From: Richelia sinica FACHB-800
GTDB lineage: Bacteria; Cyanobacteriota; Cyanobacteriia; Cyanobacteriales; Nostocaceae
DNA length: 64,000 nt
NCBI RefSeq assembly: GCF_014698825.1
Contig: NZ_JACJTT010000003.1
Location: 62,001 to 126,000, forward strand
Direction of reading: 5' to 3'
A program made the translations under genes and the position numbers. How positions within the stretch are numbered: position 1 is the stretch's first letter; the number at the start of each line of letters is the position of its first letter. The notes below the pieces were generated by a model. That model was not told the origin of the DNA. It searched no databases and saw nothing but the letters and a program-made list of their open reading frames with translations. Positions 3,331-8,125 of this stretch are shown piece after piece.

Positions 3331-5649
3331 ATGATGACAAAGCTGGCTAGATTTCGCTTTAAAAGTATTACCCATCGCTTGATATTTGGTTGTGTGGTAG
3401 CAGCGATCGCTATTTATGGCACTTCCTATTTTCACGGTCGTTATCTGGTGCATAAAAGTGTGGGTATTTGGATGAGTGATTTAGCCAAATCCCGCATTGA
3501 TACGGCAGCTAGGGAAATTGAGGCGACACTGCAAGTTATGGAATGGAAGGTGTTGCTATCTATTCAGGATATGCAAAAATCAGCCGCTACTGCCAATGAC
3601 ATAGAAATTCAGCAATTTTTGCCGCTAGTTAACAGTTTATTTGCACAACAGCCCCAAGTCCAAGCGATCGCCCTCATTGATACCAACAGCATATCTGCAA
3701 CTGCATGGTACGCTGATCGTCAAACCAAAGCCACTACCCTAAGTCCAGCTAAAACTCAAGTTTGGCTCAATCGCTGTCAAATCCAGAGTCACACCCCAGC
3801 TAAGTCAGCATTTTGGACTCCAGCATACACATCCAATCATTCCCATATTGCTTATTGTGTTCCCCTGGAGGCTAGTAATCCAGCTAGTAAGGGTTGGTTA
3901 GTTATGGAGGTAAATTTAGATTGGGTATCTGCTGTCATGGTAAAAAAATTAGCCCAATTCCGTGAAGTAAATTACCTCAAACTAGGCGACCCCTTTGTAT
4001 TATCGTCATCCAATCAACAGTGGATTGTCAAACCACCAAACCCCCAACAAATTCAGTCTTGGTTATCGTCAACAAGTGATATTTCCGGCAACCGTCAAAA
4101 GCATCAAGGTATTTTGATGACCACTGATATCACTTCCACAAACTGGATTATCGGTATTGCTTTTCCTGGAACTAAATTAGAGCAGTTTTATCAGCAATAC
4201 ATCTGGTTGATGATAGCTTCCATGTCCAAGGATATGGTGTTGATGTGTGTCGTCATTGCTTTGATTTCTCAACTGACTACCCGACCACTGCGGCAACTTA
4301 ACGCCAGCACCCAAGAAATGGCTAAGGGCAACCTTGACACCATTTTACCTCCTGTAACTTCCGATGATGAGGTGGGGCGCTTAACCCAATCTTTTCGGCA
4401 AATGCGTGACTCTTTGCAACTGTATATAGTTAATCTGCAAGAGACAACTGCGGCTAAACAAAAACTAGAAAGTGAACTTTCCATTGCTGCCCAAATTCAG
4501 CGCACAATGGTGCCTCGCACCACGGTAGACAGTAGCCCTAATTCACCCTATCAAATATCTGCCCTGCTCAAACCTGCACGGATTGTCGGTGGAGACCTCT
4601 ACGACTTCTTTATGTTAGGAAGCGATCGCCTGTGCATAATTATTGGCGATGTTGCTGACAAAGGATTTCCCGCTGCCTTAATGATGGCACGTACAGTTAC
4701 CCTCATTCGTACCCTCACCCAACCTGACTATAGCCCCCAGAAAATCCTAGAAACGGTCAATCAGGAGTTATGCGCGGAAAATGAAGAATGTTTATTCGTA
4801 ACTGTCTTCTGTGGGGTAATTGAACTCAAACAAGGCAAATTTACCTACGCCAGTGGTGGTCATGATGCACCTTTACTCGTACAAAATCACCTGGTGCAAT
4901 ATCTGGAGTTGGAAACTGGCCCACCCCTGGGACTATACGACGACGCTGAATTTACACAAAGCGAGTCTGTACTTGCCCCTAATGATTTAATTCTCCTTTA
5001 TACTGATGGCATCACAGAAGCAATGAACTCTCAAGGTGAAATATTTTCTGATACCCGGTTAATAGAGATGATGACCTCCTATCCTCCCAATAACCCAGCC
5101 CGTGCAATTCGCACCATTGTGCATTTTTGCCAACAGTTTGTGGGAGATGCACCGCAGTCAGATGATATGACCTTGTTAGCTGTGCAGTATTTACCGTTAA
5201 GTCCTTTTTCTCAAGTAGCAAATGTTATGGAATGGAACCTGACCATCAACAGCGAGTTAACGGAGTTAGAGGCTGTGCGACAGAAGTTAGGGGAGATTTT
5301 GCAAGCTGCTAATTTGACAGTTGAGGTGATTGAAGATGCTCAATTGATAGTTGAAGAGGTGTTAGTCAACATTATTGAATATGGTTATGAAAACCACAGC
5401 GATGGTTTTATTGACTTGCGAATTGAGATGGACAAGCAACATCTGACCATGACCTTTAAAGATAGTGGTAAGCCCTTTAACCCGCTCACAGAGATTACCC
5501 CAGCAGATACCAGTATGGATGATGAAGAGCGATCGCTTGGGGGATTTGGCTTTTTCCTCGTGCAAAAATTGGCACAACAGGTAAACTATGCTTATCTCAA
5601 TGGTCAGAACGTTTTGACCGTCCAGCAAGTGATTACTACCGCAAATTAG
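3331..5649 (+). CDS. membrane SpoIIE/RsbU-type phosphatase fused to anti-sigma-type kinase domain
   Basis: 772 residues. Order: transmembrane helix (about 18-34), extracytoplasmic sensor of Cache type (35-288), second helix (290-313), HAMP (314-367), PP2C-like SpoIIE phosphatase (about 385-620) and a GHKL ATPase of RsbW type (635-770). Metal-binding Asp motifs of the phosphatase are present: GGDLYDFF (about 419), GDVADKG (about 438), YTDGITEA (about 556) and DDMTLL (about 611). The ATPase N-box reads VLVNIIEYGYENH. The STAS protein gene starts 55 bases downstream. Known partner-switching logic: the ATPase phosphorylates the STAS serine and the phosphatase removes it. Having both activities in one membrane receptor suggests a self-contained switch controlled by an external ligand; the output partner is not visible here. 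Confidence 0.9.
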   Translation: MMTKLARFRFKSITHRLIFGCVVAAIAIYGTSYFHGRYLVHKSVGIWMSDLAKSRIDTAAREIEATLQVMEWKVLLSIQDMQKSAATANDIEIQQFLPLVNSLFAQQPQVQAIALIDTNSISATAWYADRQTKATTLSPAKTQVWLNRCQIQSHTPAKSAFWTPAYTSNHSHIAYCVPLEASNPASKGWLVMEVNLDWVSAVMVKKLAQFREVNYLKLGDPFVLSSSNQQWIVKPPNPQQIQSWLSSTSDISGNRQKHQGILMTTDITSTNWIIGIAFPGTKLEQFYQQYIWLMIASMSKDMVLMCVVIALISQLTTRPLRQLNASTQEMAKGNLDTILPPVTSDDEVGRLTQSFRQMRDSLQLYIVNLQETTAAKQKLESELSIAAQIQRTMVPRTTVDSSPNSPYQISALLKPARIVGGDLYDFFMLGSDRLCIIIGDVADKGFPAALMMARTVTLIRTLTQPDYSPQKILETVNQELCAENEECLFVTVFCGVIELKQGKFTYASGGHDAPLLVQNHLVQYLELETGPPLGLYDDAEFTQSESVLAPNDLILLYTDGITEAMNSQGEIFSDTRLIEMMTSYPPNNPARAIRTIVHFCQQFVGDAPQSDDMTLLAVQYLPLSPFSQVANVMEWNLTINSELTELEAVRQKLGEILQAANLTVEVIEDAQLIVEEVLVNIIEYGYENHSDGFIDLRIEMDKQHLTMTFKDSGKPFNPLTEITPADTSMDDEERSLGGFGFFLVQKLAQQVNYAYLNGQNVLTVQQVITTAN

Positions 5650-5704
5650 AATCACCCAATTTCCGCTAAACTACAAATAAATACTTAGTTTTCAAATAAA
5701 ATCT

Positions 5705-6082
5705 ATGTCCTTACAAATTCACGTAGAAGATCATAACTCCAGTATCTTACGTTTATCCTTAGATGGTCGCCTTGATACCACCACAGCCAATGATTTAGAC
5801 AAGTCTATTCACAATAGCTTGACACCTGACACTCAGACAGTAATTTTAAATCTCCAAAACCTCAACTTTATCTCTAGTGCTGGACTCAGAGTCTTGGCTA
5901 AGGTGCGAAAAACCATGAAATCAAGAGAAGGTAAGGTATATTTCATCAATCTTACACCCCAAGTACAGAAAGTATTTGATATTGTCAAAGCTGTTCCCCT
6001 GTCTGAGGTGTTTGTTAGCACTCAAGAATTAGATGCCTACTTGACTGCCATGCAAGCGGAAGTAGGAGGAGAAAGTAATTAG
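5705..6082 (+). CDS. STAS-domain anti-sigma-factor antagonist
   Basis: 125 residues, one STAS domain (residues 3-110). The phosphorylation loop is intact: FISSAGLRVL (residues about 56-65), with SSAGLR containing the serine that RsbW/SpoIIAB-type kinases modify. The downstream helix and VFDIVKAVPLSEVF also fit the family. It lies 55 bases after the phosphatase/kinase fusion on the same strand, so it is the probable substrate of that protein. In other bacteria the unphosphorylated STAS protein binds the anti-sigma factor; in cyanobacteria the final target is often not sigma-related. Confidence 0.9.
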   Translation: MSLQIHVEDHNSSILRLSLDGRLDTTTANDLDKSIHNSLTPDTQTVILNLQNLNFISSAGLRVLAKVRKTMKSREGKVYFINLTPQVQKVFDIVKAVPLSEVFVSTQELDAYLTAMQAEVGGESN

Positions 6083-6189: not shown

Positions 6190-7572
6190 ATGAATCAATC
6201 TAATTCTAATCATGGCCATCAACAGGGAAATGTCAAAGGAATTACCAGAATTTCTGTCAGTGGTTACAAGTCCCTTTATGATGAGTGCAGTATAGAAGTT
6301 CGGCCATTAACAATTTTGGCAGGTGCTAATAGTTCTGGTAAATCAAGTATCATGCAGCCTTTATTGTTAATGAAACAAACTCTAGAAGCTACTTATGATC
6401 CTGGAGCTTTGTTGTTGAATGGGCCGAATGTTAAGTTTACTTCAGCGGCACAATTATTTTCTAAGTTTCCCGGACTAAAATCTAATAATACATTTACTGT
6501 TGGTATTGAAATATCACGTAATCAGTTTATTAGCAATATATTTACAAATCATAAAAAAGAGGGAATAGATATTGTTAAAATGATCTACAAAGGGGAGGAG
6601 AAAGAGTTCTCTCTTTTGCCTAATATGTTATCAGAAGATATACTCAATATTTTGCCAAAACCTTATATAGAGATATATAACGCTATTCAAGATACAGAAA
6701 CATTAAAAGATAAAACAACATGGGTTGTAGATAGAAGTAGGTGCTTTTTAGAATTCTCATTATCTGCCAAAGAAAAATATAATATTATTTCTCAAAATCC
6801 ATTATTTAACTTATTATATTCCAGTCCTTCTGAAATCTTTGGAAATTATATTCGTGAAATAATCCATGTACCTGGATTAAGGGGTAATCCTGAACGTAAT
6901 TATAAAATTACAGCTATAGGTGATGAATTTCCAGGTACATTTGAAAACTATGTTGCTAGTGTTATTAATCATTGGCAAAAAGGTAAAAGTTCCAAAAATA
7001 TAAAAGAATTATGTTCAGCGCTAGAAACCCTGCGACTAACTTGTAAAGTTCATGCAAGGCAAGTTAATGACACACAAGTTGAGCTTAGAGTTGGTCGTCT
7101 GCCAACCCAGTCCAAATCCAAAGACGATATGGTCAATATAGCCGATGTTGGTTTTGGTGTTTCCCAAACCTTGCCTGTTTTAGTAGCTTTATTAGCAGCA
7201 GAACCGGGGCAATTAGTTTATATTGAACAACCGGAAATTCACCTTCATCCCCGCGCTCAAGTAGCTATGGCGGAAATATTAGCAAATGCGGCAAAACGGG
7301 GTGTAAAAGTAGTGATAGAAACTCATAGTGATAGGTTAATTTTAGCAATTCAATCCTTAGTAGCTGAAGGTAATTTATCGCCAGATTTAGTTAAATTGCA
7401 TTGGTTTACACGTCAAGAAGATGGTATAACAAGAGTCAATAGTGCTGATTTAGATGAAGCTGGTGCTTTTGGAGATTGGCCAGAAGATTTTGGTGATGTT
7501 TCTTTACAACTAGAAAATCGTTATTTAAGTGCTGCGGAAGCTCGTTTAATGCAAGGTATACATGGGGAATAA
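6190..7572 (+). CDS. AAA ATPase, DUF3696 (COG4938-like) type
   Basis: 460 residues. Single-chain ABC/SMC-like ATPase: Walker A GANSSGKS at 45-52, signature-like DVGFGVSQTLPVL at 319-331, Walker B LVYIEQPEIHLHP at 342-354 and switch ETHSDRLI at 377-384. Between Walker A and the signature lies an AT-rich, charged insertion of about 250 residues. The ending (residues 405-455, with FGDWPEDFGD) resembles the DUF3696 tail. The Walker B reads EQPE rather than DEPE, which I recall as usual in this family. The gene overlaps the downstream PIN-like gene by 11 bases, so the two are translationally coupled. Similar OLD/AAA ATPases drive several phage-defence systems (PARIS, Septu, Gabija), which is the basis for suspecting defence; no phage or plasmid genes are nearby. 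Confidence 0.85.
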   Translation: MNQSNSNHGHQQGNVKGITRISVSGYKSLYDECSIEVRPLTILAGANSSGKSSIMQPLLLMKQTLEATYDPGALLLNGPNVKFTSAAQLFSKFPGLKSNNTFTVGIEISRNQFISNIFTNHKKEGIDIVKMIYKGEEKEFSLLPNMLSEDILNILPKPYIEIYNAIQDTETLKDKTTWVVDRSRCFLEFSLSAKEKYNIISQNPLFNLLYSSPSEIFGNYIREIIHVPGLRGNPERNYKITAIGDEFPGTFENYVASVINHWQKGKSSKNIKELCSALETLRLTCKVHARQVNDTQVELRVGRLPTQSKSKDDMVNIADVGFGVSQTLPVLVALLAAEPGQLVYIEQPEIHLHPRAQVAMAEILANAAKRGVKVVIETHSDRLILAIQSLVAEGNLSPDLVKLHWFTRQEDGITRVNSADLDEAGAFGDWPEDFGDVSLQLENRYLSAAEARLMQGIHGE

Positions 7573-8125
7573 AGTAAATTCTAAGCTATTAGTAATTGAT
7601 GCTTCTGTCGCTCGTTCATGTGGTACTAAGGAAGCAACTTATCCAACTTCAGTAAACTGCCGGAATTTTCTTATGGCTGTTCTAGGAATTTGTCATCAAA
7701 TTGTAATGACATCAGACATTAAAAAAGAGTGGGATAAACATCAATCACCATTTGCTCGAAAATGGCTCACTCAAATGGTAGCAAAGAAAAAATTTAAATT
7801 TATATATATTTCTATTGATAATAAATTATGGAGCCAAGTAGAAACTATTGCTGCCAATATAAGTAATAAAAGAATTGAAGCAATGACGAAAGACTTATGT
7901 TTAATAGAAGCAGCATTAGCAACTGATAAAATAGTCATATCATTAGATGATAATACTGCTAGAAAATTTTTTAGTGCAGCATCAGTTCAAATTGATTGTC
8001 TCAAAAATATTGTCTGGGTCAATCCAGATAAAGTGGAAGAAGAAACACCTATTGAATGGTTAAAAAATGGTGCTGAAGTAGAAAGCGATCGCTTGCTCGG
8101 TAACTACAACACCAAAAATGAATGA
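7562..8125 (+). CDS. PIN-like domain protein, probable RNase partner of the AAA ATPase
   Basis: 187 residues. Acidic residues are placed as in PIN nucleases: D13 in LLVIDASVA, E56 in SDIKKEWDKH, D111 in TKDLCLIEAAL and D129/D130 in IVISLDDN. PIN enzymes cut RNA with two metal ions, so single-strand RNase activity is predicted. The start ATG 7562 lies inside the end of the ATPase gene, with AAGG at 7553-7556 five bases before it. The protein is longer than a typical VapC (about 130), with an extra C-terminal part from about 145. No antitoxin-like gene is next to it; the ATPase may hold it in check or deliver it. The PIN assignment rests on motif spacing only. Confidence 0.65.
   Translation: MGNKVNSKLLVIDASVARSCGTKEATYPTSVNCRNFLMAVLGICHQIVMTSDIKKEWDKHQSPFARKWLTQMVAKKKFKFIYISIDNKLWSQVETIAANISNKRIEAMTKDLCLIEAALATDKIVISLDDNTARKFFSAASVQIDCLKNIVWVNPDKVEEETPIEWLKNGAEVESDRLLGNYNTKNE

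Follow-up and report, generated by a model that had tools for sequence, protein, structure and literature searches.

A widespread, phage-carried OLD-type ABC ATPase and PIN-fold gene pair of cyanobacteria as a candidate anti-phage module

Within a 64,000-nucleotide stretch of the Richelia sinica FACHB-800 genome (the window), two genes on the same strand encode an ABC-type ATPase and a smaller protein with a predicted PIN fold (Table 1). An earlier note, made from the sequence alone, had described the two frames as overlapping by 11 bases; both open reading frames and the overlap are indeed present, and the overlap suggests translational coupling of the ATPase and PIN genes. The neighbours of the pair in the window are RsbU-like and STAS genes and a peptide transporter, none of which are defence genes. 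The RsbU-like phosphatase and STAS genes, to the left of the pair (3331-6082), are absent beside the peptide transporter in 24 relatives; hence, the segment comprising these two genes and the pair appears specific to the window genome among those compared. An empty insertion site beside the transporter gene was not found, the left side (RsbU-like, STAS and pair) being missing there in the relatives.

Table 1. Features of the ATPase-PIN gene pair, in positions of the window
Feature	Positions	Strand	Basis
ABC/OLD-type ATPase, 460 aa, proposed sensor	6190..7572	+	ORF; AAA_15, AAA_21 and NsnB models; structural neighbours
Walker A, GANSSGKS, ATPase residues 45-52	6322..6345	+	G45, N47, G50, K51 and S52 invariant in 26 homologues
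Hypervariable block, ATPase residues 110-220, beta-rich insert, proposed trigger-recognition region	6517..6849	+	identity; sister-genome divergence; AlphaFold strands
ABC-like signature, GFGVSQ, ATPase residues 321-326	7150..7167	+	G321, G323 and Q326 invariant in 26 homologues
Walker B, VYIEQPEIHLHP, ATPase residues 343-354	7216..7251	+	Y344, E346, P348, E349 and H351-P354 invariant in 26 homologues
H-loop, ETHS, ATPase residues 377-380	7318..7329	+	invariant in 26 homologues
Overlap of both reading frames, 11 bases	7562..7572	+	same 11-base overlap in many homologous loci
PIN-fold protein, 187 aa, proposed RNase effector	7562..8125	+	ORF; family alignment; AlphaFold; Foldseek
D13, first acidic residue of PIN tetrad	7598..7600	+	kept in 21/22 homologues; Y in L010
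E56, acidic residue of PIN tetrad	7727..7729	+	invariant in 22/22 homologues
D111, acidic residue of PIN tetrad	7892..7894	+	invariant in 22/22 homologues
D129, acidic residue of PIN tetrad	7946..7948	+	invariant in 22/22 homologues; retained in phage homologues

The ATPase matches the Pfam models AAA_15 (4.9e-27, aligned over residues 18-384) and AAA_21 (1.5e-24). Its best PADLOC model is NsnB of Menshen (2.2e-60, residues 18-437), followed at lower scores by HEC-03B, PDC-M55A and AriA, the AriA models (1.3e-29) covering the generic AAA_15/AAA_21 region. The Walker A and Walker B motifs that the earlier note had read in this protein are conserved across the homologues, whereas its assignment to the DUF3696 group stands only as a clear relation to the DUF3696-type NsnB, the match to DUF3696 itself being sub-threshold (18.3 bits, the cut-off being 22). 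Searched against PDB sequences, a profile built from 26 homologues retrieved the OLD-family nuclease 6p74 as the sole match below 1e-5, and the AlphaFold model (pLDDT 82.9), which has strands in the hypervariable block, is matched in structure comparison by Rad50 and SMC heads, Septu PtuA and retron ATPases. Hence, we place the protein in the OLD/SMC-like group of ABC-type ATPases; on its predicted structure, it is a member of the PtuA/Rad50-like class. An insertion of about 250 residues between Walker A and the signature had been put forward as a possible trigger sensor. Most of this span is the normal distance between these motifs in the class, as the extent of the AAA_15 alignment indicates, and the extra, variable part lies at about residues 90-220; a sensing role is thus better placed in that hypervariable part than in the whole 250 residues.

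Conservation of the ATPase is about 0.9 at the motifs and falls to 0.25-0.42 over residues 100-220, with a mean pairwise identity of 21% in residues 110-220 against 63% in the rest. The sister pair L013/L014 is 33-50% identical in the block and mostly more than 90% identical outside it; block identity likewise drops to 38% in L022/L024 and 57% in L015/L016, and the prophage pair L180/L182 also dips there (0.47 against about 0.7-1.0). Two Menshen NsnB control pairs from the same order display no such hypervariable block. In L013/L014, dS is 1.08 in the block against 0.15 outside, a contrast suggesting that recombination has replaced the segment; no donor of the replaced block was found. In four sister pairs dN is 0.20-0.45 in the block against 0.02-0.03 elsewhere, and dN/dS is 0.7-0.9 in the block against about 0.14 outside in L015/L016, L022/L023 and L022/L024, the corresponding values for L023/L024 being 0.23 and 0.11. 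Positive selection is not significant, the block of no sister pair having a dN/dS significantly greater than 1, and the variability may accordingly reflect relaxed constraint. To judge by its pattern of divergence, the block is what a recognition surface caught up in an arms race would look like. More tentatively, and at somewhat less than even odds, we entertain a defence family with an exchangeable recognition block, in which the beta-rich segment at about residues 90-220 would, as a whole, be exchanged or diversified among close relatives, thereby resetting the trigger, with the ATP-driven core and the PIN RNase remaining fixed.

The small protein gave no match at a useful score in Pfam, NCBIfam, PADLOC or PHROGs; the Pfam PIN model matched two family members weakly (0.012), and the family profile found nothing significant among PDB sequences. 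Its AlphaFold model, built from 22 sequences, has a pLDDT of 90.5, and the top Foldseek matches belong to the PIN superfamily, namely VapC, HARP RNase P and Nob1 (probability 0.9-1.0, best E-value 2.9e-3, TM about 0.5). We regard the assignment of the predicted structure to the PIN fold as good, with moderate numbers; it comes from AlphaFold and Foldseek together, and the four acidic residues from which the earlier note had first suspected this fold follow the PIN pattern across the homologues, which also share the motifs LVIDAS, EWxKH, KDxxLxEAA and SxD. One otherwise intact homologue (L010:1492-2043) has a tyrosine for the first active-site aspartate (LVIYAS) and is either a naturally inactive variant or the product of a sequencing error. 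With RNases as its nearest folds, the small protein would most likely act on RNA. PIN-like folds also include DNA nucleases, and the resemblance of the ATPase model to Rad50, SMC and PtuA heads would suit a mechanism like that of Septu, with the Rad50/PtuA-related ATPase recognizing DNA ends or structures and a PIN/FEN-like nuclease cutting phage DNA. Against this, the structural neighbours VapC, HARP and Nob1 are RNases, and the 33 neighbourhoods compared share neither a DNA-binding domain nor a methyltransferase as partner of the pair; DNA targeting thus seems to us quite improbable.

The PIN protein was found in 33 of the 293 genomes of the window genome's order, as a fragment only in G127, G168, G230 and G290 and as a truncated copy in G155. 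The ATPase, counted as present at E < 1e-80, occurs in 31 of 286 genomes of the order, 29 of which also have the PIN gene adjoining it; in the other two the ATPase is broken (G194) or has its C-terminus replaced (G247). In the latter (L115:6234-8390), the C-terminus is a copy of part of a neighbouring small gene, the PIN partner has been lost and an unrelated 205-aa gene follows the ATPase. Wherever the PIN gene is intact, the two genes are adjacent, in the same order and on the same strand, either overlapping or separated by a few bases, and the exact 11-base overlap recurs. The pairing is near-obligate, divergence of one protein tracks that of the other (Mantel r 0.83, p 0.0002) and purifying selection acts on both genes (dN/dS 0.07-0.46). 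Given this selection and the recurrence of the pair in dozens of genomes, its association is not due to chance. Within the order the distribution is patchy, including decayed copies and varied genomic places. A scan of genome contigs with the PIN protein returned one relative only.

Beyond the order, planctomycete genomes carry the pair too (five matches, with G649 having a partial PIN match and no ATPase found beside it). In IMG/VR, the ATPase is present in 10 loci and is directly followed by the PIN gene in nine, the tenth (L183) stopping at the ATPase where the contig ends; two of the loci, L047 and L179, are one and the same contig, and L180 differs little from L181. In L047, an integrase, both terminase subunits and replication genes surround the pair. 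Carriage by phages is thus clear, and conservation outside the window genome, which the earlier note had left for checking, extends from the order to planctomycetes and phage loci. INPHARED phages, PLSDB plasmids and E. coli genomes gave no match.

The ATPase and PIN genes are the only elements common to all 33 neighbourhoods, and the lack of an antitoxin next to the PIN gene, noticed in the window, holds throughout them: no third gene or antitoxin is conserved with the pair. The ATPase itself might serve in that capacity, with the PIN protein as the toxin that it neutralizes and the two maintained mainly by selfish stabilization, as in addiction modules, rather than by phage sensing. The PIN fold is typical of VapC toxins, loss of the ATPase tends to accompany loss or decay of the PIN gene (G230, G585) and AAA ATPases that neutralize TOPRIM toxins are known (PMC10440598). 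We nevertheless consider such a toxin-antitoxin role unlikely. The ATPase persists intact beside the truncated PIN gene in G155 and without a PIN gene in G247, and may therefore be more than an antitoxin; further, a hypervariable block would not be expected in a plain antitoxin, and plasmids yielded no match.

Most cyanobacterial loci have housekeeping neighbours. Among the 25 families listed for 118 neighbours compared with PADLOC, only kinase-type models appear, and no BREX genes were recognized among the scanned neighbours; thus, location in defence islands, which the earlier note had proposed to check, is unsupported for most loci. It does apply to the closest relatives (G155 and G253, the g5 genomes), the only ones for which defence-gene neighbours were seen: there, DarT, DarG, PD-T4-2_A/NsnA-like, PDC-S32-like and PtuA/AriA-like ATPase genes make the surroundings a defence-rich region. 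The pair in these genomes lies in a variable region beside a large gene, which from reading its sequence we take to be leuS; no empty site was seen in this region, one flanking gene being confined to its own genome. In G155, where the pair is decayed, the DarT-DarG toxin-antitoxin genes lie close by (L072:13571-15390). Also near the pair, a PtuA/AriA-like ATPase gene is followed by a 318-aa gene with the motif KIVILCEG (L052:7221-9385, L072:10116-12229), which has no PADLOC match; the two are possibly another two-gene defence module.

As to the other settings, the pair adjoins an oppositely oriented Hsp70-like gene (about 532 aa) in six genomes (L058, L059, L060, L064, L065, L077), marking a possible recurrent insertion place, and in several families it is found upstream of rpsB-tsf-recG (L054, L056, L057, L062, L076), where a mobile defence module would not usually be expected. 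Housekeeping neighbours of this kind in many cyanobacteria, together with the purifying selection on the pair, would be in keeping with a host RNA-processing or stress-regulation role unconnected with defence. This strikes us as very improbable for genes confined to 33 of 293 genomes of the order, with some copies decayed and places that differ, that are carried by phages and include a hypervariable ATPase block.

Hence, with a probability of about 0.6, we propose that the pair is a two-gene anti-phage module of the abortive-infection type, with the ATPase as sensor and the PIN RNase as effector. In its favour we count the pairing, co-divergence, patchiness, phage carriage, defence neighbours in the g5 genomes, the PIN tetrad, the ATPase class and the block; against it we count the housekeeping neighbours of most cyanobacterial loci, the non-defence neighbours in the window, the modest Foldseek values, a block dN/dS not significantly above 1 and the lack of INPHARED or PLSDB matches. 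From these genomic data we infer the defence role, and likewise a physical complex, trigger sensing, an RNA target and protection from phage. The most likely mechanism can be modelled by analogy on PARIS, in which the AriA ATPase, on sensing a phage protein, sets free the AriB nuclease, which cuts tRNA (PMC12409363). Briefly, the ABC ATPase would form an oligomeric sensor that keeps the PIN nuclease inactive. A phage product bound through the hypervariable beta-rich block (residues ~90-220) might then change the ATPase, which would release or activate the PIN protein. The latter would cut RNA, with tRNA or some other RNA of translation as the likeliest substrate, and thereby halt growth of the phage, at some expense to the cell itself.

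Among known systems, PARIS shares with the pair a two-gene layout with the ABC ATPase first and the nuclease second, as likely sensor and effector (PMC12409363); it differs in that AriB is a TOPRIM nuclease and the window effector a PIN protein, and the window ATPase fits NsnB far better than AriA. With no AriB match and a PIN protein in its stead, PARIS was rejected by effector fold. Septu likewise combines an ATPase and a nuclease in two genes, and the ATPase model resembles PtuA, but its effector is the HNH protein PtuB, for which neither Pfam nor PADLOC gave a match in the pair; it too was rejected in favour of the PIN fold. Gabija, with a C-terminal TOPRIM in GajA and the helicase GajB, was rejected as the 460-aa ATPase has no TOPRIM match and the pair no helicase. 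Thus, the earlier note was right to separate the pair from all three by its effector. VapBC shares the PIN-fold RNase; however, the window PIN protein is, as that note had observed, longer than VapC (187 aa) and its partner is a 460-aa ATPase, and neither a small DNA-binding VapB-like antitoxin nor any other common gene is found beside the PIN gene across the loci.

The window ATPase is closest to NsnB of Menshen among the PADLOC models, but at half the score of a true cyanobacterial NsnB, which reaches 417 bits and lies between the NsnA and NsnC genes. The pair has a PIN protein and neither of these: in place of NsnA (GmrSD_N/DUF262) the upstream gene encodes the STAS protein, with no gene common to this position in homologous loci, and in place of NsnC there is a downstream protein that, like its homologues, matches no PADLOC model. 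Membership in Menshen was rejected, as NsnA and NsnC are missing. Menshen-type loci proper (NsnA-NsnB, mostly with NsnC) were observed in twelve cyanobacterial genomes (L117-L128), with the NsnC position apparently shortened or absent in L120, L127 and L128.

Elsewhere, a defence function of PIN nucleases has been validated, in DS-3 and DS-5 of DefensePredictor (PMC13092281). The nearest precedent is a survey of OLD-ABC ATPases paired with HNH, PD-(D/E)XK or PIN nucleases near BREX in 594 taxa, whose authors propose such dyads as phage-sensing backup suicidal effectors (Rakesh and Krishnan, NAR 2026, PMC12839542). In the window pair, too, a gene for an OLD-type ABC ATPase adjoins a PIN gene, the same combination as in the survey's OLD-ABC plus PIN category. 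Hence, the claim of the earlier note to an undescribed module does not hold for the kind of system and may hold at the level of the family alone. In the survey's dyads PIN is one of several alternative nucleases near BREX, whereas the window pair stands alone, and the parts of the survey available to us give no family, motif, structure, phage carriage or variable sensor for that category. In the literature searched, we found no description of the family, its phage carriage or its variable block. What emerges is a defined ATPase-PIN pair, widespread and carried by phages, which none of the family libraries searched recognizes as a system. It extends the effectors available to this branch of ABC ATPases to PIN RNases, and it singles out one ATPase block as the likely phage detector, making phage recognition by such ATPases directly testable.
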